From Pseudomonas sp. ML2-2023-3 (lineage in GTDB: Bacteria; Pseudomonadota; Gammaproteobacteria; Pseudomonadales; Pseudomonadaceae): a stretch of DNA of 64,000 bases. Location of the stretch: contig NZ_CP146343.1 of assembly GCF_037055275.1 (NCBI RefSeq), positions 2,824,501 through 2,888,500 of the forward strand, given 5' to 3'. The notes under the pieces are model-generated. The model worked only from the letters and a program-made list of their open reading frames with translations. It was not told the DNA's origin and ran no database searches. Below, piece after piece: positions 28-15,015 of the stretch. A program made the position numbers and the translations under genes. How positions within the stretch are numbered: position 1 is the stretch's first letter; every line of letters begins with the position of its first letter.

Positions 28-1410
28 ATGGGACGCATCACCCACATGGGCGGCTGGCTGTCAGTCGCACTGGTTTTACACGGTTATAGCGGGCTAGCAC
101 TGGCCCAGGCACCTGCGGATCAGATCGCCCGGCTGGGCAAGGATCTGACCTGCGTCGGCGCACAGCAGGCGGGCAATGCCGAAGGCACAATCCCGGCGTT
201 TGGCGGTCAATGGCTGGGTGCGGCGCCCGGGATGAAGTTCGAGGGCACGGGCAAGCATCCTGTGGATCCGTACCCCACCGAAAAGCCGCTGTTTGTGATC
301 ACCGCGCAAAACCTGAGTCAGTACGACGCCCATTTGTCCGAGGGGCAGAAAGCCCTGTTCAAGCTCTATCCGCAGACCTTTCGCATGCCGGTTTATCCTT
401 CGCACCGCGACTTCCGTTTCTCTGACACCGTGTGCAAAGCCACCCTGGAAAATGCTTCGGTCGCCAAGCTGGTCGATGACGGTGAGGGCGTGGTTGCTCG
501 CACCGGCGGTGTGGCATTCCCTATCCCGCAAAACGGTATCGAGCTGCTGAAAAACGCCTCGCTGTTTACCGTGCGGGCATGGACCGAGGAGTACACGTCA
601 GACAACGCCTATGTGCTCAAGGACGGCAACATCAACTGGGGCCGTGTGCATTCGCGCAACATGGCGCCGGGCCTTGAGCCAGGCAAAATAGGTGATACCA
701 CCGGCAACTCATCGTTCTATCTCAACGAGACCCTGCTGCCACAGCGCGACAAGGGTGAAATCAATACCGGTACCGAGTACTGGAACGACAAGACCGAGCC
801 GCGCCAGAGCTGGCGCTACGACCCCGGCACGCGTCGCGTTCGCCAATCCCCGGGTTACGGTTTCGACATGGCATTCCCGGGCTCCGGTGGTTCCATCACG
901 GTCGACGAAGTTCGAATCTTCAACGGCTCTGCCCAGCGCTACAACTGGAATATCGTCGGCAAGAAAGAGCTGTATATCCCGTACAACACGGCGCGCTTGC
1001 ATGACAGCAACCTCAAGTACGCCAACCTGCTGACCCCGGGCCATATCAACCCCGACAACATGCGCTATGAGCTGCACCGCGTATGGGTGCTCGAAGGCGT
1101 ACTCAAACCCGGCAACCGCCATCTGTATGGCAAGCGCACGATGTACATCGACGAAGACAGCTGGTTCCCGATCATGGGCGACAACTACGACAACCGTGGC
1201 GAGCTGTGGCGCACCTCGATGGTCAACTACTTCTATGCCCCGGAGACACAGACCTGGCAGGCGGGTGTTGGCCTGTATCACGACTTGAATGCGGGCAGCT
1301 ACCTGGCGTTCAACCTGATCAACGAACAACGTAACGGCTATGTGCTGAACAAAGGCGGATTTGCGCCGGGGGATTTCGGTCCTGAAGCAGCACGCCGGGC
1401 CGGCAAGTAA
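28..1410 (+). CDS. DUF1329 family envelope protein
   Basis: The 460-residue product starts with a hydrophobic signal peptide (cleavage expected after the LALAQA segment near residue 27) and matches the DUF1329 family, periplasmic or outer-membrane-associated proteins with a LolA/LolB-like fold. The start is set by an AAGGAG box at 16-21, six bases before the ATG. The next gene encodes a DUF1302 barrel-like protein; DUF1329/DUF1302 pairs are common beside degradation clusters for hydrophobic substrates, notably steroids, and are thought to help such substrates across the envelope, although their biochemistry is not established. The window opens just upstream, so this may be an internal gene of a longer operon. 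The family call is firm; the transport role is inferred from context. Confidence 0.85.
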   Translation: MGRITHMGGWLSVALVLHGYSGLALAQAPADQIARLGKDLTCVGAQQAGNAEGTIPAFGGQWLGAAPGMKFEGTGKHPVDPYPTEKPLFVITAQNLSQYDAHLSEGQKALFKLYPQTFRMPVYPSHRDFRFSDTVCKATLENASVAKLVDDGEGVVARTGGVAFPIPQNGIELLKNASLFTVRAWTEEYTSDNAYVLKDGNINWGRVHSRNMAPGLEPGKIGDTTGNSSFYLNETLLPQRDKGEINTGTEYWNDKTEPRQSWRYDPGTRRVRQSPGYGFDMAFPGSGGSITVDEVRIFNGSAQRYNWNIVGKKELYIPYNTARLHDSNLKYANLLTPGHINPDNMRYELHRVWVLEGVLKPGNRHLYGKRTMYIDEDSWFPIMGDNYDNRGELWRTSMVNYFYAPETQTWQAGVGLYHDLNAGSYLAFNLINEQRNGYVLNKGGFAPGDFGPEAARRAGK

Positions 1411-3244: not shown

Positions 3245-4429
3245 CTAACGCGCTTCGCGCGGCATGCCCAACGCTCGTTCGGCAATGATGTTGCGCTGGA
3301 TTTCACTACTGCCACCGTAGAGGGTGTCGGCCCTGGTAAACAGGAACAGGGCCTGCAGGCGGGTCAGCTCGTAAGGTGCCCCTGCCAGCAACTCGGCTTC
3401 AGGCCCGAGCACGTCCATCGCCAGCTTTCCAAGTTCCACATGCCAGGTGGACCACGCCAGCTTGTAGATTGTTGCTTCAGGTCGAAGGCTGCCGTCCTGA
3501 GCTCCGGACAACATGCGCAGCGAGTTGTAGCGCAACACACGCAAGCCGGCCCAGGCCTGGGCAATGCGTTGACGTATGACGGGGTCCTGCGCCGCGCCAT
3601 TGGCCCTGGCGATACGCACGACTTCGTCCAGTTCATTCTGAAACTGCATCTGCTGCCCTAGGGTCGAAACCCCTCGCTCAAACCCCAGCAGCGCCATGGC
3701 AATTTTCCAGCCATCGCCAGGCTGGCCGATCATGTTGTGCGCCGACGTCCTGGCCTGATCAAAAAACACTTCATTGAATTCGCAGGTGCCGGTCAATTGC
3801 TGGATCGGCTGAACCTGTATACCTGGCTGATCCATGGCGACCAGCAAAAAAGACAGGCCGCGATGGCCGACACTGCCCGGTTCGGTGCGTGCAAGCACAA
3901 AGCACCAATCCGACTCATGGGCCAGGGATGTCCAGACCTTTTGCCCGCTGATCAACCATTGGCCGCTGCTTTCATCGAAACTGGCGCGGGTCTTGATATT
4001 GGCCAGGTCGGAACCTGCGCCGGGCTCGGAATAGCCCTGGCACCAGAAATCCTGCCCAGACAGAATCGGCGGCAAAAAACGCTGTTGCTGCTCGGGGGTG
4101 CCGAAGGCTGCAAGGGTCGGTCCGACTAGGCCCTCGCCAATATGACCCATGCGCCCCGGACCGCCCGCCCGGGCGTATTCTTCAAAAAAAATCACCTGCT
4201 GGTTGATACTCAGTCCACGGCCCCCATGCTCGGTGGCCCAACCGGCACCGACCCATTGCCCCTGTGCCAGTACCTGCTCCCAGCGTTTACGCAACGCGGG
4301 GGCAAAGTCTTCATCCCCTGGGCCACCACGAAAGCGCAGAACGGCAAATTCGCCAGTGAGGTGCGTTTGCATCCACTGGGCCACTCGTTGCCGGAACTGC
4401 TCATCTGCTGCGCTGAAGCCGATATTCAT
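3245..4429 (-). CDS. Acyl-CoA dehydrogenase, FadE30-like
   Basis: A 394-residue flavin acyl-CoA dehydrogenase with the middle-domain FAD motif QGYSEPGAGSD (131-141) and the C-terminal GGSSEIQRN motif. The usual MCAD catalytic Glu before GxSxxIQ is Gly here, but Glu251 in GFERG sits where FadE26-type steroid dehydrogenases place their base. From memory it matches Mycobacterium tuberculosis FadE30 closely over long stretches (for example GQKVWTSLAH and FERGVSTLGQQ). FadE30 desaturates the propionate side chain of HIP-CoA, the C/D-ring steroid intermediate. The stop overlaps nothing, while the ATG overlaps the end of the upstream partner gene by 4 bases, so the two are co-translated and probably form a heteromeric enzyme. 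Family is certain; the HIP-CoA assignment is a similarity-based inference. Confidence 0.85.
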   Translation of the reverse strand: MNIGFSAADEQFRQRVAQWMQTHLTGEFAVLRFRGGPGDEDFAPALRKRWEQVLAQGQWVGAGWATEHGGRGLSINQQVIFFEEYARAGGPGRMGHIGEGLVGPTLAAFGTPEQQQRFLPPILSGQDFWCQGYSEPGAGSDLANIKTRASFDESSGQWLISGQKVWTSLAHESDWCFVLARTEPGSVGHRGLSFLLVAMDQPGIQVQPIQQLTGTCEFNEVFFDQARTSAHNMIGQPGDGWKIAMALLGFERGVSTLGQQMQFQNELDEVVRIARANGAAQDPVIRQRIAQAWAGLRVLRYNSLRMLSGAQDGSLRPEATIYKLAWSTWHVELGKLAMDVLGPEAELLAGAPYELTRLQALFLFTRADTLYGGSSEIQRNIIAERALGMPREAR

Positions 4430-5598
4430 GTGCGCTCTCCGAAAATCTGTCTGGCCAATTGCTCGCGATGAAATGCCGGAGTGCCGAGCATCTGCTCACT
4501 GGCCCGCGCTCGCTTGAAGTACAAGTGCGGGTCGTATTCCCAAGTGAATCCCACGCCGCCATGCAGCTGGATGGACTCGGCAGCGCACTGAAAAAAACCT
4601 TCACTGGCGAAGATCTTGGCCGTGGCGGCGGCCTCTCCCAGTTGCTGTCGAGCACTTGGATCGCCATCAATGTTCAGGCATTGATCGGCAATGCAGGCGG
4701 CGTAATAACTGGCGGACCGTGAGCACTCAATGGCCAGCATCAGATCGGCGCAACGGTGCTTGATGGCCTGGAAGCTGGCGATACGACGACCAAACTGTTC
4801 GCGCTCGCTTATGTATTTCAAGGTGATGTCCAGTGACTGCTGGGCACCGCCGGTCTGCTCGCCAGCCAGACCGATGCAGGCGATGTGCAGCACATCGCGC
4901 AGCAACGGCCAGCCCTGTCCCGGCTCGCTGAGCAAATGCTCGTCGCAGACGGCAACGTCGTTCAGGGTGAGGGTGGCCAGGCGACGGGTCTGATCCAGTG
5001 TCGCCTGCGGCTGGCAAAGAATGCCGGGTGTGTCAGCAGGTAAAGCGAACAAGCGGATACCGGCTTCGCCGACGCTGCCCGGAGTGCGAGCGGCAATGAT
5101 CAACAAGTCACAGTCGGCGCCGTCGATGACATAGCGATACTCGCCATTGAGGCGATACCCGCCTGCATGGCTTTGTGCATACACCTGCACGCCACTATCG
5201 TCCCAGCGTGGGGCGCTGGTATAGGCGAGGCTGGCGCGTACGTCTCCAGCGGCGATCAATGGCAACCAGCGCTCCTTGAGTGACTCATTGCGGCTGAGCA
5301 ACAGGGCAGGGGTGGCCAGGCAGCACGTGGCAAAAAAGGGCGTAGGCAGCAGGCAGCGTCCCAGTTGCTCCTGCAACAGGCAAACCTCGGCGAAGCCCAG
5401 TCCGAGTCCGTCATAGGCTTCAGGGATCGCCAGTGCAGGCCAGTACAGCTCCTTGGCTATTTGCTCCCAAGTCTGGGAGTCATACCCACGTTCACTGCTC
5501 ATCGCCGTGCGCACGGCGCTGGAGCTGGCAACCTGGGTCAAAAAACGCTCGGCAGACGCTTGAATCATTCGCTGCTCGTCAGTCAGGGCAAGCTCCAT
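4426..5598 (-). CDS. Acyl-CoA dehydrogenase, non-catalytic-type partner
   Basis: A 390-residue acyl-CoA dehydrogenase-fold protein with the EREQFGRRIASFQAIKH substrate-pocket/dimer motif and a C-terminal LHGGVGFTWEYD segment. It lacks the GFERG glutamate of its neighbour, having AGEQTGG in that region. This is the pattern of alpha2beta2 steroid acyl-CoA dehydrogenases, in which one subunit carries the base and the other completes the FAD and CoA sites. The start is the ATG at 5598, giving the usual MELALTDEQ N-terminus; an upstream in-frame ATG would add 21 unrelated residues. Its last 4 bases overlap the start of the FadE30-like gene. It is the first gene of the minus-strand half of the catabolic island. 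Confidence 0.82.
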   Translation of the reverse strand: MELALTDEQRMIQASAERFLTQVASSSAVRTAMSSERGYDSQTWEQIAKELYWPALAIPEAYDGLGLGFAEVCLLQEQLGRCLLPTPFFATCCLATPALLLSRNESLKERWLPLIAAGDVRASLAYTSAPRWDDSGVQVYAQSHAGGYRLNGEYRYVIDGADCDLLIIAARTPGSVGEAGIRLFALPADTPGILCQPQATLDQTRRLATLTLNDVAVCDEHLLSEPGQGWPLLRDVLHIACIGLAGEQTGGAQQSLDITLKYISEREQFGRRIASFQAIKHRCADLMLAIECSRSASYYAACIADQCLNIDGDPSARQQLGEAAATAKIFASEGFFQCAAESIQLHGGVGFTWEYDPHLYFKRARASEQMLGTPAFHREQLARQIFGERT

Positions 5599-5728
5599 GT
5601 GGGCCTCGTCTAAGTGATACGGATCAAGGCGCCAGCATGAAAGCGCGCAACGCGGGTGCAATCCCTGAGCCGGACTAGTCCGTATGAGGGGCCCGTTTGC
5701 GCGTGTTTAACGCAATGGAAGGGGTGAG

Positions 5729-5887
5729 GTCAGACTTCGGAATCCCAGATGACAGCGATACTTCCTGAGTACTTGCCTTGCTCAGACAGCATTTGCTCGA
5801 CGTATTCCTTTTTGATCTCGAAGTGCAGCAGGGATGGCTTTTGCTCGACATAGTGTGTGGACTTGAATATCTGATCTGTCGCAATGC
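5729..5887 (-). pseudogene. Possible truncated coding remnant next to the IS
   Basis: Read on the minus strand, this stretch is an open frame of about 50 codons (ending FEIKKEYVEQ...WDSEV, stop at 5729-5731) with charged, protein-like composition. It runs up to the IS target duplication. Removing the IS joins it to a short open frame beginning at an ATG at 7076, giving only about 58 codons, so it is unclear whether a real gene was broken or only the tail of an older gene survives. I recognise no family. It could also be chance open sequence. Confidence 0.3.
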
Positions 5888-5891
5888 TTAA
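5888..5891. repeat. IS target-site duplication, left copy (TTAA)
   Basis: TTAA immediately before the left inverted repeat; the same four bases follow the right end at 7061-7064. A 4-bp YTAR duplication is typical of IS5-group insertion. Confidence 0.8.
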
Positions 5892-7060
5892 GGAAGCTCC
5901 GATCAACTTGCCGCAACCGCGCAGTAAGTTGAAAATCCCGCTGAATTTGGCGCTATTGACCGCGAAATATCCCGTACGCGCCGCCTTGGCGAGCTTGTCA
6001 GCCCATTTCTCCGTGTTACGTGCGTAATTAGCCCATACCCATCAGCTTTTTTCGAGCCATCCATAAATTGGACAAGGCAAACAGCGTGGTCAATTGAGCG
6101 GTGTTTTTCATCAGGCCGCGAAAGCGCACTTTCACATAACCGAACTGACGTTTGATCACCCGAAATGGGTGTTCGACCTTGGCCCGTGTCTGGGCCTTGA
6201 GGTACTCGATTTTGCGCTTGGCTTTGTACAGCACGCTGCGCTTGTTCAGCTTGGAATAGGTGCTGCGTCGCGCGGCGATTTGCCAAACCACTTCACGGTT
6301 TTCATGCTCTTCGCGCTTCTCGACACCGGTGTAACCAGCATCAGCGTAGACCGCGTTTTCCTCGCCGTGCAGCAGTTCAGCAACCTGAGTGACATCGGCT
6401 ACATTCGCCGCGGTGCCGTGAACGTGGTGAACCAGCCCCAACTCAACGTCGGCACCAATATGGGCCTTCATTCCGAAGAAATATTGATTGCCTTTCTTCG
6501 TCTGATGCATCTCTGGATCGCGTTTACCGTCCTCGTTTTTAGTCGAACTGGGCGCGTGGATAATCGTCGCATCGACGATGGTGCCCTGGCGCAGCGAGAG
6601 GCCTTTCTCCTGCAAATAACCGTTGATGACCGCCAGGATCGCCGGCGCCAACTTATGATTCTCCAGCAGGTGTCGGAAGTTCATGATCGTGGTGTCTTCA
6701 GGGATCGGCGCGCTCAGGGTCAAGTGCGCAAACTGGCGCATGGGCGTGATTTCATACAGCGCTTCTTCCATGGCAGGATCGCTCAGCGAGAACCAGTTTT
6801 GCAGCAAGTGAATGCGCAGCATGGTTTCCAGCGGATACGGTTTTCGGCCACCACCAGCCTTCGGATAATACGGCTCGATCAACGCCAGTAAACCGCTCCA
6901 GGGCACGACCTGATCCATCTCGGCGAGGAACCGTTCGCGGCGTGTTTGCTTGTGCTTGCCCGCGTATTCGAAATCGGAAAAGCTCATCTGGCTCATGACG
7001 CACTCAGGGCAGGTGGTGAGGCTGTATTTCAGCATACTTGGAGACTTGTTCGGAGTTTCC
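5892..7060 (-). mobile_element. IS5-family insertion sequence, intact
   Basis: The element is 1169 bp, the usual size of the IS5 subgroup. Its ends are imperfect inverted repeats: GGAAGCTCCGATCAA at the left and the complement of GGAAACTCCGAACAA at the right, 13 of 15 identical. TTAA direct repeats flank it on both sides. One transposase gene runs on the minus strand, with about 135 bp of non-coding tail before the left end. It lies between the minus-strand and plus-strand halves of the catabolic island and interrupts neither of them. The specific IS name cannot be given without a database comparison. Confidence 0.88.
6028..6996 (-). CDS. IS5-family transposase
   Basis: A 322-residue DDE transposase. 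The N-terminal DUF772-type domain (about 1-130, with the RIHLLQNWF segment) is followed by the DDE catalytic core, including IVDATIIHAP with the first Asp, YADAGYTG with the second, and the C-terminal segment VEHPFRVIKRQFG with the Glu. The start at 6996 gives the standard MSQMSFSDFEYAG N-terminus; open frame continues upstream only because no stop occurs there. The frame is full length with no stop or shift, so the element may still move. It would catalyse cut or copy transposition through the inverted repeats at 5892 and 7060. Confidence 0.92.
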   Translation of the reverse strand: MSQMSFSDFEYAGKHKQTRRERFLAEMDQVVPWSGLLALIEPYYPKAGGGRKPYPLETMLRIHLLQNWFSLSDPAMEEALYEITPMRQFAHLTLSAPIPEDTTIMNFRHLLENHKLAPAILAVINGYLQEKGLSLRQGTIVDATIIHAPSSTKNEDGKRDPEMHQTKKGNQYFFGMKAHIGADVELGLVHHVHGTAANVADVTQVAELLHGEENAVYADAGYTGVEKREEHENREVVWQIAARRSTYSKLNKRSVLYKAKRKIEYLKAQTRAKVEHPFRVIKRQFGYVKVRFRGLMKNTAQLTTLFALSNLWMARKKLMGMG

Positions 7061-7064
7061 TTAA
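7061..7064. repeat. IS target-site duplication, right copy (TTAA)
   Basis: Direct repeat of the TTAA at 5888-5891, directly after the right end of the IS. Confidence 0.8.
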
Positions 7065-7074
7065 TGGTGTGCAC

Positions 7075-7254
7075 ATGCGCATTGATGTAAGTCGACGCTC
7101 GCTGCGGGGCCATGACCGACCGGCAGAGATACATGAGGCGATGCACAATTTGCGCCATGCCCTGCAACTGCATCAGGGGCACTGGAGCCCCGCAGAGGTT
7201 CAGCGCGTACACGACTTGCTTAACAACACCGCCAAAGCAATTGTTGATGGGTAA
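7075..7254 (+). CDS. Small hypothetical ORF beside the IS
   Basis: A possible 59-residue protein starting MRIDVSRRSL and ending NNTAKAIVDG, with a His-rich, mostly helical-looking middle (HNLRHALQLHQGHW). I see no convincing ribosome binding site and recognise no family. It starts 11 bases from the IS end, so the IS may have cut off its promoter or N-terminus. The rest of the gap up to 7401 shows no other clear feature apart from the leader of the next operon. Low confidence that it is a gene. Confidence 0.3.
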   Translation: MRIDVSRRSLRGHDRPAEIHEAMHNLRHALQLHQGHWSPAEVQRVHDLLNNTAKAIVDG

Positions 7255-7401
7255 CCCTAGATAACGTGCCGTGCGCAGAGCAGCTTTGGCTCGCTCCTGC
7301 GCAGGGCACGCGGCTGGCAACTGTTTAGTCTCAACGGACGATGATCCACCCCCGGCGCGTTCCCATACTGCTCCCATGCCTTTGCCAACCCGGGAGCACA
7401 T

Positions 7402-8166
7402 GTGAACAGCGCAACTCATACCGCATTTCACACCAGTATCGACGCAGGCGTCGCTGAACTGGTGATCGACAGGCCGCCCGTCAATGCCCTCAACAGCCAA
7501 GAGTGGCTGGACCTGGCGCATACCCTGGAAGCGCTTGGCCAGGATCCTGAGGTCCGCGTGATTGTGATTCGTGCCGAGGGCCGCGGTTTTTGCGCAGGGG
7601 TCGATATCAAGGAACTCGACGCCCACCCGGAACTGATCGTCAAGGTCAACGCAGGCAACTACGCCACCTTCAAGGCGGTGCATCGCAACCCGGTGCCGGT
7701 GATTGTCGCGGTTCACGGTTTTGTACTGGGTGGCGGGATCGGGATTACCGGCGCCGCCGATATCGTCGTGGCTTCCGATTGCGCCACGTTTGCCCTGCCG
7801 GAAGTAGACCGCGGCGCGATGGGCGGTGGTGCCCATCTGCAGCGTTTGTTCCCGGTACAAAAAGTGCGTTATCTGTTTTTTACCGGCGACAAGATCGGCG
7901 CTGTAGAAGCCCAGCAGTACGGCTTTATCGAGCGCGTAGTGCCCCGTGAGCAACTGCGTGAAACCGCGCTGCACATTGCCCACAAAATCGCGGGCAAAAG
8001 CCCCGCAATGATCCGCATCGCCAAAGAAGCGTTGAACGGTATCGAAGACGGCAACCTGGAAGACAAATATCGCTGGGAGCAGGGTTTTACGCTTCAGGCC
8101 TACACCAGTGCGGACTCCGCCGAAACTCGCCGTGCGTTCGTTGAAAAACGCGACGCCAAGTTCTGA
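7402..8166 (+). CDS. Enoyl-CoA hydratase/isomerase family, EchA20-like
   Basis: A 254-residue crotonase-fold protein with the oxyanion-hole segments FCAGVDIK (63-70) and GFVLGGG (106-112) and a single acidic residue, Glu134, in the LPEVDRGA active-site loop. The start is GTG at 7402, preceded by GGGAG; the overlapping ATG at 7400 would hit a stop at once. From memory it resembles M. tuberculosis EchA20, including the EGRGFxAGVDIKE block and the C-terminal YRxEQGFT motif; EchA20 opens the D ring of a late HIP-CoA catabolite rather than hydrating a double bond. It is the first gene of an eight-gene operon with gaps of 3-10 bases in most places. Crotonase fold is certain, the EchA20-type reaction is inferred. 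Confidence 0.85.
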   Translation: MNSATHTAFHTSIDAGVAELVIDRPPVNALNSQEWLDLAHTLEALGQDPEVRVIVIRAEGRGFCAGVDIKELDAHPELIVKVNAGNYATFKAVHRNPVPVIVAVHGFVLGGGIGITGAADIVVASDCATFALPEVDRGAMGGGAHLQRLFPVQKVRYLFFTGDKIGAVEAQQYGFIERVVPREQLRETALHIAHKIAGKSPAMIRIAKEALNGIEDGNLEDKYRWEQGFTLQAYTSADSAETRRAFVEKRDAKF

Positions 8167-8176
8167 GGAACCGACC

Positions 8177-9331
8177 ATGGAACTGACTTATTCGCCCAAA
8201 CAAAAGGCTTTCCGTCAGGAGGTCAGGCAATGGCTGGCGGCTAATCTGCCGTCTGAACCCCTCGCCAGTTACGACACCCGCGAAGGCTTTGAGCAGCATC
8301 GCCAGTGGGAAGCCAAGTTGTTCGACAGTCGTCTGTCGATGGTGATGTGGCCCACCGAACTGGGTGGCCGTGGCTGCGATCTGATCGAGTGGCTGATTTT
8401 CGAAGAAGAATATTACGGTGCGGGCGCCCCCATGCGGGTCAATCAGAACGGCCAGTTATTGCTCGGGCCCACCCTGATGGAGTTCGGCACCGAAGCACAG
8501 AAAAAACGCTTTCTGCCGCGCATGGCGGCCAGTGCCGACATGTGGGCCCAGGGCTGGTCCGAGCCAAACGCCGGTTCCGACATGGCTGCGATCACCAGCA
8601 AGGCCACCCGTGATGGCGAGGGCTATGTGCTCAATGGCCAGAAAACCTGGTCGACCCGGGCCATTTTTGCGGACTGGCTGTTTGGTTTGTTTCGCAGTGA
8701 TCCCACTTCTAGCCGTCACCACGGGTTGTCATTTGTCATGGTGCCGCTCAATGCGCCGGGTGTGACGGTGCGTCCCATCAAGGCCCTGAACGGCAAGGAC
8801 GCCTTTGCCGAAGTGTTCTTCGATGACGTGCGCATCCCGCTGGAAAATCGCATTGGCGATGAAGGGCAGGGCTGGCATGTGGCTATGGCCACCGCCGGTT
8901 TCGAGCGCGGCCTGCTGTTGCGTTCACCGGCGCGTTTTCAGTACACGGCGCGCAAACTGGTGGAGCTGTATCAGGCCAACCGTGCCAGTGCCGACCGTGA
9001 CCCAAGCCTGGGTGATGCAGTGTGCAAGGCCTGGATGGATGCGCAAGCCTACGCCTTGTCTGCTTACCACACCGTGGGCCGACTGAGCCGTGGGGCGCAG
9101 ATTGGCGCTGAGTCGAGCACCAACAAAATCATCTGGTCGGAACTTGATCTGCGCATGCACGAAACCGCCATGCGCATCCTGGGTGCCAGTGGCGAACTGA
9201 CCGGTAAATCGGCAGACGGTCACGACTGGCTGGAGGGCTTTCTGTTTGCTCAGGCAGGTCCCATCTACGCAGGCACCAACGAGATTCAGCGCAATATCAT
9301 TGCCGAGCGCATGCTCGGTCTGCCGAAGTGA
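8177..9331 (+). CDS. Acyl-CoA dehydrogenase, catalytic-type subunit
   Basis: A 384-residue acyl-CoA dehydrogenase with the flavin motif QGWSEPNAGSD (125-135) and C-terminal YAGTNEIQRNI. Glu243 in GFERG takes the position of the base in FadE26-type enzymes, while the MCAD-type Glu is absent. The ATG at 8177 gives the standard MELTYSPKQ start, 11 bases after the hydratase stop; an upstream ATG inside that gene is unlikely. The next gene encodes a shorter partner lacking this Glu, so the pair probably assembles as a heterotetramer, comparable to the FadE31-FadE33 group of HIP degradation. It would introduce a double bond in a CoA thioester left after ring opening. Confidence 0.85.
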   Translation: MELTYSPKQKAFRQEVRQWLAANLPSEPLASYDTREGFEQHRQWEAKLFDSRLSMVMWPTELGGRGCDLIEWLIFEEEYYGAGAPMRVNQNGQLLLGPTLMEFGTEAQKKRFLPRMAASADMWAQGWSEPNAGSDMAAITSKATRDGEGYVLNGQKTWSTRAIFADWLFGLFRSDPTSSRHHGLSFVMVPLNAPGVTVRPIKALNGKDAFAEVFFDDVRIPLENRIGDEGQGWHVAMATAGFERGLLLRSPARFQYTARKLVELYQANRASADRDPSLGDAVCKAWMDAQAYALSAYHTVGRLSRGAQIGAESSTNKIIWSELDLRMHETAMRILGASGELTGKSADGHDWLEGFLFAQAGPIYAGTNEIQRNIIAERMLGLPK

Positions 9332-9339
9332 GGCCGGGG

Positions 9340-10398
9340 ATGGACTTTACCTTTACCGATGACCAGCAAACCTTCCGCGAAGCCATCAGCCGTTTTCTGA
9401 TGACTGAAGCCGCGCCGGAAATGCTCCGTGAAATCTGGGAAACCGATGTCGGCCGTTCCCCGGATCTGCGCAACAAAATTGCCGAGCAGGGCCTTACGGC
9501 ACTGTCGATTCCTGAAGCCTTTGGTGGCCTGGGCATGGATGACGTGGCCTGGGCCTTGATGACGCAGGAGTTGGGTTACTACGCCATACCTGATTCGCTG
9601 GCCGATACCGCTTATGTGGCCAGCGCCCTGATCGCGGGCTTGCCCGAAAGCGTTGCCCAGCGCGGCGAGTGGCTGGAGGGTATAGCCGATGGCAGCTTGC
9701 GGGTTGCCATCGGGCACCCGGTCAATCCGCTGGTGGCGGATGCCGCCCATGCTGATCTGTTGCTACTGGCCCATGGCGATGAAGTTCACGCCGTACCTCG
9801 CAGCCAGGTGGATGTCCAGGGTCACAGCAGCCTGGATGCCTCTCGGCGTCTGGCGCAGGTCAGCTGGCAACCTTGTGCTGCGACGCAGGTGGCGCAGGGC
9901 GAACAGGGCCGTGAACTGTGGTCGCAGACGCTGAACCGTGGCGCGCTGTCGGTGGCCGGACAGTTGCTCGGGCTGGCGCAACGCATGCTGGATCTGTCGG
10001 TGGATTACGCCGCGCAGCGCAAACAGTTCGGCAAGCCGATCGGCAGTTTTCAGGCGGTCAAACACCACCTGGCCGACGTTGCCACCCAGCTCGAATTCGC
10101 CAAGCCGGTGCTGTATCGCGCCGCTTACGCCCTGGCTCATAACGAGCCGAATGCAGCCGTGTGGGTGTCCCAGGCGCGTCTGGCCAGCTGTGAAGCAAGC
10201 TGGCTGGCGGCTCGCCACGGTATTCAGGTACATGGCGCGATGGGGTACACCTGGGAAGTCGACCTGCAGATGTTCATGAAACGCGCCTGGGCACTGGACA
10301 GCGCCTGGGGCGACCGTGCGCTGCACAAGACCCGTGTGGCCGAGTATGTATTGAGTGGCGCGGCGCCTCTGGGCCCCGGTCACACGTTCGAGGATTGA
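9340..10398 (+). CDS. Acyl-CoA dehydrogenase, partner subunit
   Basis: A 352-residue acyl-CoA dehydrogenase-fold protein. It has the AAQRKQFGKPIGSFQAVKHH motif and the HGAMGYTWE segment near the C-terminus, but no GFERG glutamate; the region reads AGQLLGLAQ. It is slightly short for the family (usual length 370-390). The ATG at 9340 is preferred because it yields MDFTFTDDQ and follows a GGGG stretch; a GTG at 9328 overlapping the upstream stop is possible. It is probably the non-catalytic half of a dimer of dimers with the preceding gene. Confidence 0.83.
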   Translation: MDFTFTDDQQTFREAISRFLMTEAAPEMLREIWETDVGRSPDLRNKIAEQGLTALSIPEAFGGLGMDDVAWALMTQELGYYAIPDSLADTAYVASALIAGLPESVAQRGEWLEGIADGSLRVAIGHPVNPLVADAAHADLLLLAHGDEVHAVPRSQVDVQGHSSLDASRRLAQVSWQPCAATQVAQGEQGRELWSQTLNRGALSVAGQLLGLAQRMLDLSVDYAAQRKQFGKPIGSFQAVKHHLADVATQLEFAKPVLYRAAYALAHNEPNAAVWVSQARLASCEASWLAARHGIQVHGAMGYTWEVDLQMFMKRAWALDSAWGDRALHKTRVAEYVLSGAAPLGPGHTFED

Positions 10399-10401
10399 TC
10401 G

Positions 10402-11553
10402 ATGCCCCAAGCCTATATTGTTGACGCGCTGCGCAGCCCTACCGGCAAGCGCAAGGGCGGATTGGCCCATGTCCATGCAATAGATCTGGGTGCCCATGTG
10501 CTCAAGGCACTGGTCGAGCGCAACCAGATCCCGGCGGACGAATATGACGACGTGATTTTTGGGTGCGTCGACACCATCGGCTCCCAGGCCGGTGATATCG
10601 CCCGCACCAGTTGGCTGGCCGCAGGGCTGCCACTCAACGTGCCTGGCACCACCATTGACCGCCAGTGCGGTTCCTCGCAGCAGGCACTGCATTTTGCCGC
10701 GCAAGCCGTGATGAGTGGCACCCAGGATGTGATTGCCGTAGGCGGCGTACAGACCATGACCCAGATCCCGATTTCGTCGGCGATGCTGGCCGGTCAGCCG
10801 CTGGGTTTCAGTGACCCGTTTTCCGGCAGCAAGGGGTGGCGGGCGCGCTTTGGCGATCAGCCGGTCAACCAGTTTTACGCCGCTCAGCGCATTGCGGATC
10901 ACTGGAATATCAGCCGCCAGCAAATGGAAGCCTACGCACTTGAAAGCCATCGCCGGGCGCTGGATGCCATTGCCGGGCGCCGTTTGGTGAACGAGATCGT
11001 GCCCTGTGAAGGGGTATGGGACGACGAAACGCCGCGCCACACCAGCCTGGCAAAAATGGCCGAGCTGGAGCCGGTGTCTGCCGAGTTTCCGTCGATCACT
11101 GCTGCAGTTTCCAGCCAGACCTGCGACGCCTCGGCCGCTTTGCTGGTGGTTTCTGAGGCGGCACTCAAGCGCTACAACCTGACACCACGGGCGCGAATCC
11201 ACCACCTCTCGGTGCTGGGCGACGACCCGATCTGGCACCTGACCGCGCCGATTGCCGCCACCCGCGCCGCGCTGAAAAAAGCCGGCATGAACATCGCTGA
11301 CATTGACCGGGTCGAGATCAACGAAGCGTTCGCCTCGGTGGTCATGGCCTGGGCCAAGGAACTGGATTTTGACCCCGCCAGAACCAATGCCAACGGCGGC
11401 GCAATTGCCCTGGGGCATCCACTGGGTGCCAGCGGGGCACGGTTGATGACCAGCCTGCTTAACCAGCTGGAGCAAAGCGGCGGCCGCTATGGCCTGCAGA
11501 CCATGTGCGAAGGCGGTGGGCAAGCCAACGTGACGATTATTGAACGCCTCTAG
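10402..11553 (+). CDS. Thiolase, FadA6-like
   Basis: A 383-residue thiolase with all catalytic residues: nucleophile Cys89 in DRQCGSS, the NEAF motif, His339 in GHPLGASG and Cys369 in MCEGGG. From memory it is very similar to M. tuberculosis FadA6 along its whole length (GCVDTIGSQAG, QCGSSQQA, QTMCEGGG). FadA6 acts late in HIP degradation, releasing acetyl-CoA. The gene begins 3 bases after the preceding stop, so it is translationally linked. The family is certain; assignment to the steroid route rests on this similarity and on the neighbours. Confidence 0.88.
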   Translation: MPQAYIVDALRSPTGKRKGGLAHVHAIDLGAHVLKALVERNQIPADEYDDVIFGCVDTIGSQAGDIARTSWLAAGLPLNVPGTTIDRQCGSSQQALHFAAQAVMSGTQDVIAVGGVQTMTQIPISSAMLAGQPLGFSDPFSGSKGWRARFGDQPVNQFYAAQRIADHWNISRQQMEAYALESHRRALDAIAGRRLVNEIVPCEGVWDDETPRHTSLAKMAELEPVSAEFPSITAAVSSQTCDASAALLVVSEAALKRYNLTPRARIHHLSVLGDDPIWHLTAPIAATRAALKKAGMNIADIDRVEINEAFASVVMAWAKELDFDPARTNANGGAIALGHPLGASGARLMTSLLNQLEQSGGRYGLQTMCEGGGQANVTIIERL

Positions 11554-11563
11554 GAGCATTGAC

Positions 11564-12442
11564 ATGGCAATTTGTGCAGGACGTACCGTCATCATCACGG
11601 GCGCGGGCGGTGGACTGGGCCGTGCCTATGCGCTGGCTTTCGCCGGGCAGGGTGCCAACGTGGTGGTCAACGATATTCGCCGCGAAGCCGCTGAAGAAGT
11701 GGTCGCGCAGATTCGCGAGGCAGGTGGCCAGGCCATCGCCAACGCGGATGACATCACCACCCTGGCCACGGCACAACAGATCGTGGATGCCGCCCTGGCT
11801 GCATTCGGCGAAGTGCATGTGGTGGTCAACAACGCCGGTATTTTGCGCGACCGCATGTTTATCAGCCTCAGCGAGGACGATTGGGATGCCGTGATGCGCG
11901 TGCACCTCAAGGGGCATTTCTGCCTGGCCAACATCCTTGGCAAACGCTGGCGTGACCTGGCCAAGGCCGGCCAGCCGGTGGCCGCAAGAATCATCAACAC
12001 CACGTCGGGAGCGGGCTTGCAGGGCTCGGTCGGGCAGTCCAACTACAGCGCTGCCAAAGGCGGAATCGCAGCGTTGACCCTGGTGCAGGCGGCTGAACTG
12101 GCGCGTTACGGCGTTACCGCCAATGCCCTGGCCCCGGCGGCACGCACCTCGATGACCGAGAGCGCGATGCCGGACCTGGTGAAAAAGCCCGAAGACGGAG
12201 CTTTCGACGCCTGGGCCCCGGAAAACGTTGCGCCGCTGGTGGTGTGGCTGGGCAGCGAACTGTCGGGGGATGTGACCGGGCAAATCATCGAAAGCCAGGG
12301 CGGGCGATTGTCCGTGGGCGATGGTTGGCGCACCGGCGTGACCCGCGACAAGGGTGCGCAACTGCAGCCAGAAGAAGTCGGTGTAGCCATGGGCCAGATC
12401 CTGGCAGAAGCACCTGCACCGCAAAGGGTGTGGGGCAGCTGA
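11564..12442 (+). CDS. SDR family oxidoreductase, Rv3548c-like
   Basis: A 292-residue short-chain dehydrogenase with the dinucleotide motif TGAGGGLG (12-19), NNAG (89-92) and the catalytic triad Ser148, Tyr161 and Lys165 (YSAAK). It is longer than a typical 250-residue SDR, with a C-terminal extension. Long segments (IINTTSGAGLQGSVGQ) match my memory of Rv3548c, a KstR2-linked steroid SDR. It would oxidise or reduce a hydroxyacyl-CoA of the pathway. The ATG at 11564 follows GAGC with a 10-base gap from the thiolase; the earlier ATG at 11540 lies inside the thiolase gene and adds no fold element. Confidence 0.85.
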   Translation: MAICAGRTVIITGAGGGLGRAYALAFAGQGANVVVNDIRREAAEEVVAQIREAGGQAIANADDITTLATAQQIVDAALAAFGEVHVVVNNAGILRDRMFISLSEDDWDAVMRVHLKGHFCLANILGKRWRDLAKAGQPVAARIINTTSGAGLQGSVGQSNYSAAKGGIAALTLVQAAELARYGVTANALAPAARTSMTESAMPDLVKKPEDGAFDAWAPENVAPLVVWLGSELSGDVTGQIIESQGGRLSVGDGWRTGVTRDKGAQLQPEEVGVAMGQILAEAPAPQRVWGS

Positions 12443-12530
12443 CGAGTGATGCCCGCTCCCATACTTGAGCCGCGTTGCTCTTAATTACGCTCCCACAGCG
12501 GGGCTATCGTTTTAACCAGAGATTTAAACC

Positions 12531-13316
12531 ATGAGACAAGCGCCTCCTTACGTGCCCGGTCACCAGTTGCTCGCGGGCAAGTCGATCTTGATCACCGCCG
12601 CCGCTGGCGCAGGTATCGGTTATGCCGCTGCCAAACGCTGCGCCGAAGAAGGCTGCCGCGCCTTGATGATTTCCGATATTCATCCGCGCCGCCTCGAAGA
12701 AGCGGTCGAGCGCCTCAAGGCGGAAACCGGATTGCAGGCGGTGTACGGCCAGCTGTGCAACGTCACCGTCGAAGCCGATGTACAAGCGTTGGTCGCCGCA
12801 GCTGAAGAAGCCTTGGGCGGGGTCGATGTGCTGATCAATAACGCAGGTCTTGGCGGCCAGGTACGCCTCACCGAAATGACCGATCAACAGTGGTCCTCCG
12901 TGCTGGATATCACCCTGACCGGCACCATGCGCATGACCCGCGCCATGCTTCCGCACATGGAGCGCCGTGGCGCCGGGGCCATCGTCAACAACGCCTCGGT
13001 GCTGGGGTGGCGGGCGCAGAAAGAACAGGCCCACTACGCAGCCGCCAAGGCCGGGGTCATGGCCCTGACCCGTTGCAGCGCGCTGGAAGCGGCCGAGAGC
13101 GGGGTGCGGATCAATGCCGTGGCGCCGTCCATTGCCTTGCATGACTTCCTGAAAAAAGCCTCCAGCAGTGAACTGCTGGAGCAACTGACCAGCCGCGAAG
13201 CCTTCGGTCGCGCCGCTGAAGTGTGGGAAGTGGCCAACGTCATGGTGTTCCTGGCCAGCGATTACGCCTCATACATGGTTGGCGAAGTGCTGCCTGTCAG
13301 CTCGCAACAGGCCTGA
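12531..13316 (+). CDS. SDR family oxidoreductase, IpdF-like
   Basis: A 261-residue SDR with a modified glycine-rich motif, TAAAGAGIG (22-30), NNAG (103-106) and triad Ser156, Tyr169 and Lys173. The TAAAGxGIG motif and the block NNASVLGWRAQ are shared, from memory, with M. tuberculosis IpdF (Rv3559c), which oxidises 5-hydroxy-HIP-CoA at the ring hydroxyl. It starts 88 bases after the previous gene, the largest gap in the operon, possibly with its own ribosome loading site but no visible promoter. SDR family is certain, IpdF role likely. Confidence 0.86.
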   Translation: MRQAPPYVPGHQLLAGKSILITAAAGAGIGYAAAKRCAEEGCRALMISDIHPRRLEEAVERLKAETGLQAVYGQLCNVTVEADVQALVAAAEEALGGVDVLINNAGLGGQVRLTEMTDQQWSSVLDITLTGTMRMTRAMLPHMERRGAGAIVNNASVLGWRAQKEQAHYAAAKAGVMALTRCSALEAAESGVRINAVAPSIALHDFLKKASSSELLEQLTSREAFGRAAEVWEVANVMVFLASDYASYMVGEVLPVSSQQA

Positions 13317-13326
13317 GGATCAGACC

Positions 13327-13797
13327 ATGAGTACGCTATTTAGCAGCGCCGGGCAGTTGCTCGCCGCACGTGGGCAAGACCTGGGGCACACCGACTGGCT
13401 TGTGCTGACCCAGGAGCGGATCAACCTGTTTGCCGAGGCCACGGGCGATCACCAGTGGATCCATGTTGACCCTGAGCGTGCAGCCAAGGGGCCGTTCGGT
13501 GCTTGCATTGCCCACGGCTACCTGACCCTGGCACTGGCCAATCTGTTCATGCCGCAACTGATGCAGTTCGAAAACCTGGCAATGGGTGTCAATTACGGCA
13601 GTGACCGGTTGCGCTTTCCGGCTGCGGTCAAGGTCGGTTCGCGGGTGCGCGGGCATGGCCAGATCGTGGAGGTCGAGGCACTGGGCCAGGCACTGCAGGC
13701 AGTGGTTCGCATCAGTGTCGAGATCGAGGGCAGCGAGCGCCCCGGCTGCGTGGTGGACACCATCAGCCGTTACACCTTCAACCCTATTGAGAAGTGA
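13327..13797 (+). CDS. MaoC-like hot-dog dehydratase
   Basis: A 156-residue single hot-dog protein carrying the R-specific hydratase signature ATGDHQWIHVD, with Asp41 and His46 as the expected catalytic pair. Such enzymes add water to trans-2-enoyl-CoA to give (R)-3-hydroxyacyl-CoA. The ATG at 13327 follows GAGGATCAG ten bases after the SDR stop. Its position between an SDR and a thiolase fits a beta-oxidation hydratase step. The exact substrate cannot be deduced. Confidence 0.87.
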   Translation: MSTLFSSAGQLLAARGQDLGHTDWLVLTQERINLFAEATGDHQWIHVDPERAAKGPFGACIAHGYLTLALANLFMPQLMQFENLAMGVNYGSDRLRFPAAVKVGSRVRGHGQIVEVEALGQALQAVVRISVEIEGSERPGCVVDTISRYTFNPIEK

Positions 13798-13806
13798 GCC
13801 CCGAAC

Positions 13807-15015
13807 ATGAACCTGAATGACGTTGTGATTGTATCCACGGCCCGAACTGCCTTGACCAAGTCTTTCCGGGGCTCGTTCAACGACACTGAAGCGCCGGTGC
13901 TGGGCGGGCACGTGGTGCGCGCCGTCGTCGAGCGCGCCGGGATAGAACCGGGCTCGGTGGAAGACGTGATCATGGGCGCCGCTGCTCAGCAAGGCACCCA
14001 GGGCTACAACATCGGACGCTTGTGTGCCAACACCGGCGGCCTGCCCAATACCGTGCCGGGTATGGCGATTGACCGCATGTGCGCCTCGGGCCTGATGAGT
14101 ATCGGGGTGGCTGCCAAAGGCATCATGACCGGCGAAATGTCGATCGCCGTGGCCGGTGGTGTGGAGTCATTGTCCCTGACCCAGAACAAGTACAAAAACA
14201 CCTACCGTGCACAGTCCGAGGCGGTGCTTGAATGCATGCCCACGGCCTATATCCCGATGCTCGAAACCGCTGAAATCGTGGCTCGCCGCTACAACATCAG
14301 CCGTGAAGTACAGGACCAGTATTCCCTGCAAAGCCAGCAGCGCACTGCCGCGGCCCAGGCGGGAGGTCTGTTCGGCGACGAAATCGTCCCGCTGGCTGCG
14401 CGCAAGCTGTGCTTTGACAAAGAAGGCAAGCCCAGCGGTTATCAGGACGTGATCGCGGATCGCGACGAATGCAATCGTCCGTCCACCACCCTTGAGGATC
14501 TGGCGGCACTCAAGCCGGTCTGGAAGGACGGTAAATGGGTCCAGCAGGGGGAATTCATCACGGCGGGCAACGCCTCGCAGTTCTCCGATGGCGCCTCGGC
14601 GGTCTTGATGATGAGCCGTGCCGAAGCCAAACAGCGCGGGATCGAAGCATTGGGCGTGTATCGCGGGATCGCGGTGAGTGGCTGTGCGCCGGAAGAAATG
14701 GGGATTGGCCCGGTGTTCGCGATTCCAAAACTGCTCAAGCGGTTTGGCCTGACCGTATCGGACATCGACCTGTGGGAAATCAACGAAGCGTTCGCCTGCC
14801 AGGTGGTGTACTGCCGCGACTTTCTGCAGATCCCCAACGACCGCCTGAACGTTAACGGCGGGGCGATTTCCATTGGTCATCCGTTCGGCATGTCGGGAGC
14901 CCGGATGGTGGGCCACAGCCTGCTCGAAGGCCGCCGCCGTGGCGCCCGATTTGTCGTGGTCGCCATGTGCATCGGCGGCGGCATGGGGGCTGCCGGGTTG
15001 TTCGAGCTGGACTGA
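13807..15015 (+). CDS. Acetyl-CoA acyltransferase (thiolase)
   Basis: A 402-residue thiolase with nucleophile Cys92 (DRMCASG), NEAF, His358 (GHPFGMSG) and Cys388 (MCIGGG). It is a general beta-ketothiolase and, unlike the first thiolase of this operon, does not resemble FadA6. It is the last gene of the plus-strand operon, nine bases after the MaoC gene, and is followed by a convergent MFS gene. Two different thiolases suggest two chain-shortening steps with different substrates. Confidence 0.87.

Follow-up and report, generated by a model that had tools for sequence, protein, structure and literature searches.

A steroid ring-degradation operon in two pieces in a Pseudomonas, and a 19-bp box that may hold both under common control

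The scd operon, which serves degradation of the steroid C and D rings, very probably lies broken in two in Pseudomonas sp. ML2-2023-3, with one 19-bp box as the shared control site of its pieces; we hold the gene set, the split and this role of the box with high confidence. The window, the whole 64,000-nucleotide stretch analysed here (G000:C1:2824501-2888500, in a genome of 5.4 Mb; G denotes genomes and L loci), carries one piece at 3245-15015, which amounts to about half of the bacterial genes known for breakdown of these two rings. It also seems probable, if less firmly so, that in many beta- and gammaproteobacteria the box pattern TAGTCYYNNYGGACGATGW is where the TesR/TeiR family of steroid-responsive LuxR activators binds, that it would define one regulon taking in genes for the rings, the side chain and linked membrane proteins, and that a copy was carried to the break point at the split, keeping a dispersed pathway under one switch. 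The initial annotation had read the stretch as an island for degradation of the coenzyme A (CoA) ester of 3aα-H-4α(3'-propanoate)-7aβ-methylhexahydro-1,5-indanedione (HIP-CoA). This interpretation is supported overall, and growth on steroids would be its prediction. Every gene it named has an ordered counterpart in Comamonas and the rest of the pathway is in the genome, but ‘island’ claims too much, since some of the HIP-CoA genes lie outside the window.

The genes of this piece and the putative control elements within it are given below; percentages refer to the counterpart in Comamonas sp. NoAH 6 (L188) unless another source is named.

3245-4429, minus strand: FadE30-type acyl-CoA dehydrogenase, one ScdC1C2 subunit; 56% (gene in the fadE30 position), 58% in a Rhodococcus metagenome-assembled genome (MAG; L235)
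4426-5661, minus strand: FadE33/IpdE2-type acyl-CoA dehydrogenase, the other ScdC1C2 subunit; 38%, and 39% in L235
7326-7344, plus strand: 19-bp box TAGTCTCAACGGACGATGA, candidate site of a TesR/TeiR-like regulator
7364-7369, plus strand: CATACT, a -10-like hexamer
7402-8166, plus strand: EchA20/ScdY, ring-D hydrolase (crotonase); PRK07938, 395.5 bits against a cut-off of 260; 75%, and 45-48% to actinobacterial copies
8177-9331, plus strand: FadE31-type acyl-CoA dehydrogenase ScdM1; 74%, and 53-55% in actinobacteria
9328-10398, plus strand: FadE32-type acyl-CoA dehydrogenase ScdM2; 60%, and 32-38% in actinobacteria
10402-11553, plus strand: FadA6/ScdF thiolase; PRK07801, 677.2 bits against 591; 78%, and 62-66% in actinobacteria
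11564-12442, plus strand: Rv3548c-type short-chain dehydrogenase/reductase (SDR) ScdE; PRK07791, 443.6 bits against 373; 68%
12531-13316, plus strand: IpdF/ScdG SDR; PRK07831, 447.2 bits against 336; 71%, and 60-66% in actinobacteria
13279-13797, plus strand: MaoC hydratase ScdD; PF01575, 84.9 bits; 59%, same place
13807-15015, plus strand: thiolase ScdJ, closing the operon; PF00108/PF02803; 70%, same place

All the reading frames named in the initial annotation are present, and its counterparts of EchA20, FadA6, Rv3548c and IpdF each score over the cut-off of the matching NCBIfam model. We take PRK07938, PRK07801, PRK07791 and PRK07831 to stand for these four proteins, a link supported by synteny in the Comamonas and actinobacterial loci. 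The two pairs of acyl-CoA dehydrogenases that it described are real and occupy conserved places in the L188 order. It had missed the MaoC hydratase and thiolase that end the operon, the presence of an insertion sequence (IS) among these genes, and the fact that IpdA, IpdB, IpdC and FadD3 are not encoded at 3245-15015. The start of scdM1 is at 8177, not 8108; scdC1 probably starts at 5598 instead of 5661, and scdD near 13320. FadA6 has a next best match of only 41% within its own genome, and its nearest named relative among the matches listed is from Pseudomonas sp. 5P_3.1_Bac2 (87%). For the dehydrogenases at 4426-5661 and 9328-10398 the best model was IpdE2 (NF050027; 195.1 and 146.1 bits, under the cut-off of 450), and no NCBIfam model exceeded its cut-off for the two at 3245-4429 and 8177-9331. 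Searches of the PDB returned only general crotonases for EchA20, and for the FadE33-type protein placed general dehydrogenases on top, with the IpdE-type entry 6wy8 sixth.

The genes of Comamonas sp. NoAH 6 run TesB, IpdA, IpdB, ScdN, IpdC, EchA20, FadE31, FadE32, FadA6, Rv3548c, FadE33, FadE30, IpdF, MaoC, thiolase, LuxR. Using tblastn, we compared the proteins of the window and of a second locus of the same genome (L016) with the best 80 of at least 586 confirmed loci from a FadA6 profile search, counting as neighbours matches of at least 40% identity that covered more than 60% of the query, in flanks of up to 10 kb per side; several contigs end sooner. FadA6 had FadE31 as a neighbour at 69 of these 80 loci, IpdC at 64, EchA20 and Rv3548c at 62 each, IpdA at 59, IpdB at 58 and IpdF at 56. 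Rarer neighbours were FadE30 (35), FadE32 (33), ScdN (32), TesB (21), ScdJ (18), and MaoC, FadE33 and FadD3 (17 each). The Rhodococcus MAG has the order of the KstR2 regulon (FadE33, FadE32, FadE31, crotonase, FadD3, then divergent FadE30, IpdF, FadA6), as do Speluncibacter and Nocardioides (L208, L216). Of the genes named in the initial annotation, most stand in KstR2-type order in these three loci; the order in the window is that of the proteobacterial scd genes. In two loci of Mycobacterium (L245, L256) the thiolase is present but these neighbours are not. M. tuberculosis itself is outside the 80 loci, and its genes were taken from Table 1 of PMC5380842.

The remaining steps are encoded outside the window. 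IpdA, IpdB, ScdN and IpdC lie 252 kb away at C1:3082040-3085736, preceded by a TesB/HsaC-type dioxygenase and accompanied by Sal- and Shy-type genes, names that rest on domains and place. The ring-C hydrolase genes ipdAB (L016:10040-11724) encode proteins with PDB entry 6co6 as best match (283.0 bits for IpdA, 184.9 for IpdB), against only 92.6 and 62.8 bits for glutaconate CoA-transferase; we take 6co6 to be IpdAB, the entry itself reading probable CoA-transferase. IpdC (L016:12642-13736) scores 214.8 bits in the NMO family, is below the cut-off of the FabK model and fits the conserved order; its partner IpdF is inside the window. CoA-transferases at 1.85, 1.866 and 3.063 Mb (L013, L014, L015) were rejected as IpdAB, matching at just 27-31%, and two more PF01144 matches are at 4.04 and 0.61 Mb.

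Another locus, at 2.99-3.01 Mb including its side-chain genes, holds at 2.990-2.998 Mb a FadD3-type HIP-CoA ligase (L124:8010-9635; NF005801, 717.8 bits, cut-off 657) and KstD-like (576.8 bits, cut-off 788), TesI-like and HsaA-like genes; the second flavin adenine dinucleotide (FAD) protein there is taken as TesI-like, named by its place. Beside these are genes that match, at 53-85%, an enoyl-CoA hydratase, an SDR and side-chain genes of a Vibrio alfacsensis plasmid. We named the hydratase and SDR genes ScdH and ScdB because PMC13101464, in the part available, puts scdB and scdH beside such a cluster. The fourth locus, at 3.83 Mb, has a 3-alpha-hydroxysteroid dehydrogenase (3-alpha-HSD; best PDB match 2dkn, 350.6 bits), a LuxR-type regulator and an MMPL protein.

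To place the split, 20 relatives were fetched around echA20 and their gene order was typed by tblastn. The window and the ten relatives with EchA20 at least 91% identical (L060-L069) are all broken between ipdC and echA20 (11 of 11), and in the same 11 genomes scdC1C2 is instead divergent from echA20. The run from tesB to scdJ is unbroken in L076, L077 and records from Burkholderia and Caballeronia, and also on a Novosphingobium plasmid, where extra genes are present. L073-L075 have scdC1C2 facing away from tesB and the remainder unbroken, and L072 is alike with scdG, scdD and scdJ not in view. L070 and L071 run from tesB to scdJ with scdC1C2 not in view, L078 from tesB to scdE only, and L079 from tesB to scdE with scdC1C2 and scdG 2 kb later. 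A single conserved operon is the usual feature of this pathway and is not required for its function. IpdC and EchA20, 252 kb apart here, are separated by 343 kb in G244, 305 kb in G198, 297 kb in G344, 369 kb in G132 and 758 kb, on opposite strands, in G256; in five drafts they are on different contigs. Sal and Shy stand upstream of TesB in eight of the ten relatives’ IpdC loci, L109 (at a contig start) and L110 being without them. The order of events in the split is one that we infer from sequence identities.

Both pieces begin with the same box. In a blastn search of the gap upstream of echA20, the one unexpected match was of 48 bp before echA20 to the stretch before tesB (L016:9051-9098), and the hexamer CATACT, whose role as a -10 element is presumptive, is common to both promoter regions. 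Among the upstream regions of 32 loci, TAGTCTCAACGGACGATGA was found before tesB in this genome and in 10 of 10 split relatives. Where the operon is split it also stands ahead of echA20, with three changes in L062 and two in L063, and the flanks are unlike; L073 too has it before tesB. With the dyad centre at about 7333.5 and a transcription start assumed 7 nt after CATACT, near 7376, the box would lie near -42. As both pieces start with the same box upstream of a -10-like hexamer, and a LuxR activator is its most likely binder, the split would have left co-regulation intact. The box does not appear to match the consensus sequences of extracytoplasmic function (ECF) sigma factors and sigma-54, and a promoter of that kind was set aside.

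A search of this genome allowing up to three mismatches found four sites, against none for the reversed control. The strict pattern also gave four, gaining a site before a DUF1329 gene and losing the two-mismatch ScdH/ScdB site. The box thus has five places here: before echA20, before tesB, before an SDR pair heading the Sal/Shy stretch, before scdH/scdB and before a DUF1329 gene. On the Vibrio plasmid it precedes tesB and the electron-transfer flavoprotein (ETF) genes, with a TCGTC variant between scdH and scdB; the scdH-scdB variant is an inverted repeat, TCGTC-N6-GACGA. Of 25 named loci where TesB was hit, 15 carry the box at a distance of 49-99 bp ahead of the TesB match, among them Comamonas, Thauera, Cupriavidus, Halopseudomonas, Marinobacterium and a Thalassotalea MAG. 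Its fixed letters occur 60 times in 133 sequences of at least 10 kb, which are related and were fetched for steroid genes, against a mean of 0.03 and a maximum of 1 in 200 permutations. In the genus sample 67 of 398 genomes have the strict box. When we read the gene matches around the first listed site in the first 30 of these, 24 sites shared the strand of a steroid or linked gene and lay no more than about 150 nt from it, four faced ScdB divergently, and two (L131, L135) had no clear target in the panel.

The TesR/TeiR-like LuxR regulator (L163:1414-2688) lies beside the 3-alpha-HSD gene at 3.83 Mb, about 1 Mb from the window. Its C-terminal LuxR helix-turn-helix scores 27.8 bits with GerE (cut-off 23.5), and it matches L188:19202-20311 at 47% over 88% of its length; that gene follows scdJ in Comamonas sp. 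NoAH 6, the place of tesR. EchA20 was found at E<=1e-60 in 67 of the 398 genus genomes. Of these, 66 have the strict box, and 330 of the other 331 are without it, so that both occur in 66 genomes and neither in 330 (Fisher p 1.9e-73, uncorrected for kinship). Matches to the LuxR protein itself occur in 70 genomes, namely all 67 with EchA20 and three of the 331 others (G223, G225, G149). G371, which has EchA20 without the strict box, carries a box before tesB with the last base different. G223, with box and LuxR gene and no EchA20 match, is 73% complete, and the match in G149 has an E value of 1.8e-23. G225, without EchA20 at the same threshold, has a LuxR-type gene (37%) beside KstD-, TesI-, HsaA- and TesB-like genes (43-47%; L262), perhaps another ring-cleaving pathway; DUF1302, DUF1329 and MMPL genes are in that cluster as well. 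The LuxR protein of the Vibrio plasmid, used as a query, found one homologue in the present genome, homologues in six of six other steroid genomes tried, and none at E<=1e-4 in the three EchA20-negative genomes tried. Several EchA20-bearing genomes (G266, G364, G204 and others) have two to four TesR-like matches.

We propose that the window holds one piece of an scd operon broken in two, which would take HIP-CoA to acetyl-, propionyl- and succinyl-CoA, with enzyme steps carried over from work on Comamonas testosteroni TA441 and M. tuberculosis (PMC13101464, PMC5380842). ScdC1C2, ScdD, ScdE and ScdF would shorten the propionyl side chain of HIP-CoA, and ScdG with the distant IpdC would make the enone. 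EchA20 would then open ring D and the distant IpdAB ring C, leaving ScdM1M2, the distant ScdN and probably ScdJ to complete beta-oxidation. The LuxR-type activator most likely binds the box and switches both pieces on together, as co-occurrence and position suggest. Bile acids or similar compounds are the presumed substrate.

The sequence on either side of scdC1C2 has the following features.

28-1410, plus strand: DUF1329 protein, linked; PF07044, 380.7 bits
1453-3123, plus strand: DUF1302 protein, linked; PF06980, 400.4 bits; one of three in the genome
5892-7060, no strand assigned: insertion sequence with ends GGAAGCTCCGA / TCGGAGTTTCC, from copy comparison and sequence, and TTAA flanking each side
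6028 to about 6990, minus strand: IS transposase, DDE_Tnp_1/DUF772 by domain families

The DUF1329 and DUF1302 genes adjoin the stretch as first annotated, and both also lie near scdC2 in relatives L061, L065 and L066. Between scdC1 and echA20 five relatives (L060, L064, L067, L068, L069) have 5.7-7.7 kb. In L060, L068 and L069 it encodes chaperone-usher pilus-type domains (TcfC, CooC_C); from L067 a single gene was scanned and had no domain match. The window keeps both edges of this stretch but 6.6 kb of the G244 sequence is missing, and the IS is at that spot. A clean insertion would leave such matching TTAA flanks. Four full copies of the IS, 99-100% identical, are in the genome with fragments of two interrupted ones, which marks it as recent. 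Elsewhere the window carries a LysR gene and an ECF sigma factor gene.

Several results count against our interpretation, and we set them out here with the alternatives on which they bear. The cluster could degrade another cyclic or branched acid (a terpene, hopanoid, resin acid or cyclohexane carboxylate) with enzymes that are only KstR2-like. Acyl-CoA dehydrogenases, SDRs and thiolases are singly promiscuous families; all four dehydrogenases of the window fall below every curated cut-off, FadE31 has 4x28 as its best PDB match and not the IpdE1-E2 entries, and the TesB/HsaC-type and HsaA-like proteins reach 285.7 bits in the HsaC model and 373.7 bits, each below a cut-off of 450. Pimeloyl-CoA and cyclohexanecarboxylate models do score on the dehydrogenases, but far under their cut-offs, and best matches to fatty-acid, terpene or aromatic enzymes, which would have spoken against the initial annotation, did not occur. 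As the gene order agrees with that of the Comamonas cluster at every gene and largely with that of the actinobacterial cluster, and KstD-like, HsaA-like, TesB/HsaC-like, IpdAB-, FadD3- and 3-alpha-HSD-type genes share the genome, we regard a different substrate class as highly improbable. Decay of the steroid function, with the set dispersed by the IS and the split, scdC1C2 uncoupled and no working unit left in the strain, also seems improbable, if a little less so. The IS now cuts scdC1C2 off from the box and echA20, 6.6 kb are missing there relative to G244, and the genes are spread over four loci. However, the window genes are open frames, and the split is shared by all 11 genomes sampled with EchA20 at 91% or more, hence long-standing and tolerated; the IS alone is young.

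The box itself is not universal, being absent at 10 of the 25 TesB loci: three Burkholderia, Pseudoduganella (a loose match only), two Hellea, Nocardioides, Caulobacterales, SAR86 and Sphingobium. The reversed control matched one of the 398 genus genomes (G116), and the co-occurrence figures for box, EchA20 and regulator are uncorrected for kinship. In a class sample of 369 genomes, surveyed for the box only, it occurred in three (G000, G621, G402) against two for the reversed control, which puts a lone box outside the genus near chance level; the box in G621 does stand before a TesB-type gene. The site in G402, an incomplete genome, is a strict box on a 6-kb contig (L172, contig 176) with no steroid gene matched, possibly by chance. 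Between the tesR-like and hsdA genes the box is present in G266 and G323 (L161, L162), and absent from G000, G244 and G198 (L163-L165; L163:1290-1450). A real box bound by some regulator other than the TesR-like LuxR protein is the alternative to which we give most weight, while still thinking it unlikely. Co-occurrence cannot single out which linked regulator binds, and LuxR copies number two or more in several genomes. Nevertheless, none of the 67 EchA20 genomes lacks the LuxR gene, which in Comamonas sp. NoAH 6 is the last gene of the tesB operon, the TCGTC-N6-GACGA repeat is as expected for a dimer, and tesR is reported as necessary for induction of these clusters in the available parts of PMC6895838 and PMC6678751. 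We therefore retain the TesR-like protein as the candidate binder.

The pathway, its gene set, TesR/TeiR as activator and genomes with several steroid clusters are already known; the break at ipdC/echA20 and the box on both pieces make this operon a variant. Box and regulator accompany EchA20 in 67 of 67 bearing genomes (the strict box in 66, the last base different in one), and the box can help to find more steroid genes, as with the 3.0-Mb locus here. In the parts of PMC8399759, PMC6678751, PMC6895838, PMC8700777, PMC12239570 and PMC12882949 available we found no such box; the original TeiR paper was not among them, so the box may already be published. PMC8399759, in its available part, called control in bile-acid-degrading proteobacteria largely unknown in 2021. 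TesR-like regulators were reported as confined to Comamonas testosteroni, as relayed in PMC6895838, and PMC8399759 describes TeiR-like genes in Pseudomonas stutzeri Chol1, two in number, the deletion of one delaying cholate degradation. Several steroid clusters per genome are described for Pseudoalteromonas haloplanktis and Azoarcus Aa7 (PMC8399759; see also PMC4810484, both in part). A 174-kb plasmid of Vibrio alfacsensis from turbot gut (NZ_CP140104.1; L129, L130) carries tesB-ipdAB-scdN-ipdC-echA20-fadE31-fadE32-fadA6-Rv3548c, side-chain genes, a TesR-like regulator and the box, and so brings plasmid-borne steroid degradation genes to a fish-associated Vibrio.

Set beside known systems, the genes are closest in order to the tesB...tesR operon of C. 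testosteroni TA441/CNB-2: the tesB-to-scdJ genes and their order are the same, as published (Table 1 of PMC5380842 and the available part of PMC13101464) and as found in Comamonas sp. NoAH 6, the regulator is of the same LuxR type, and the same box precedes tesB in L188. Unlike that operon, the present one is broken between scdK (ipdC) and scdY (echA20), with scdC1C2 moved and inverted and the regulator about 1 Mb from the window. The KstR2 regulon of M. tuberculosis and Rhodococcus (ipdABCF, echA20, fadA6, fadE30-33, fadD3) has enzyme counterparts in this genome. It differs in gene order and in being controlled by the TetR repressor KstR2, whereas the candidate control here is a LuxR-type regulator with a 19-bp box; the kstR2 gene and operator were not searched for. 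The P. stutzeri Chol1 and P. putida DOC21 (std) clusters, likened here by description and not by sequence, share Shy-, Sal-, FadD3- and 3-alpha-HSD-type genes with this genome. In the account of PMC8399759 available, Chol1 has a single cluster, whereas in Pseudomonas sp. ML2-2023-3 the pathway is spread over at least four loci.

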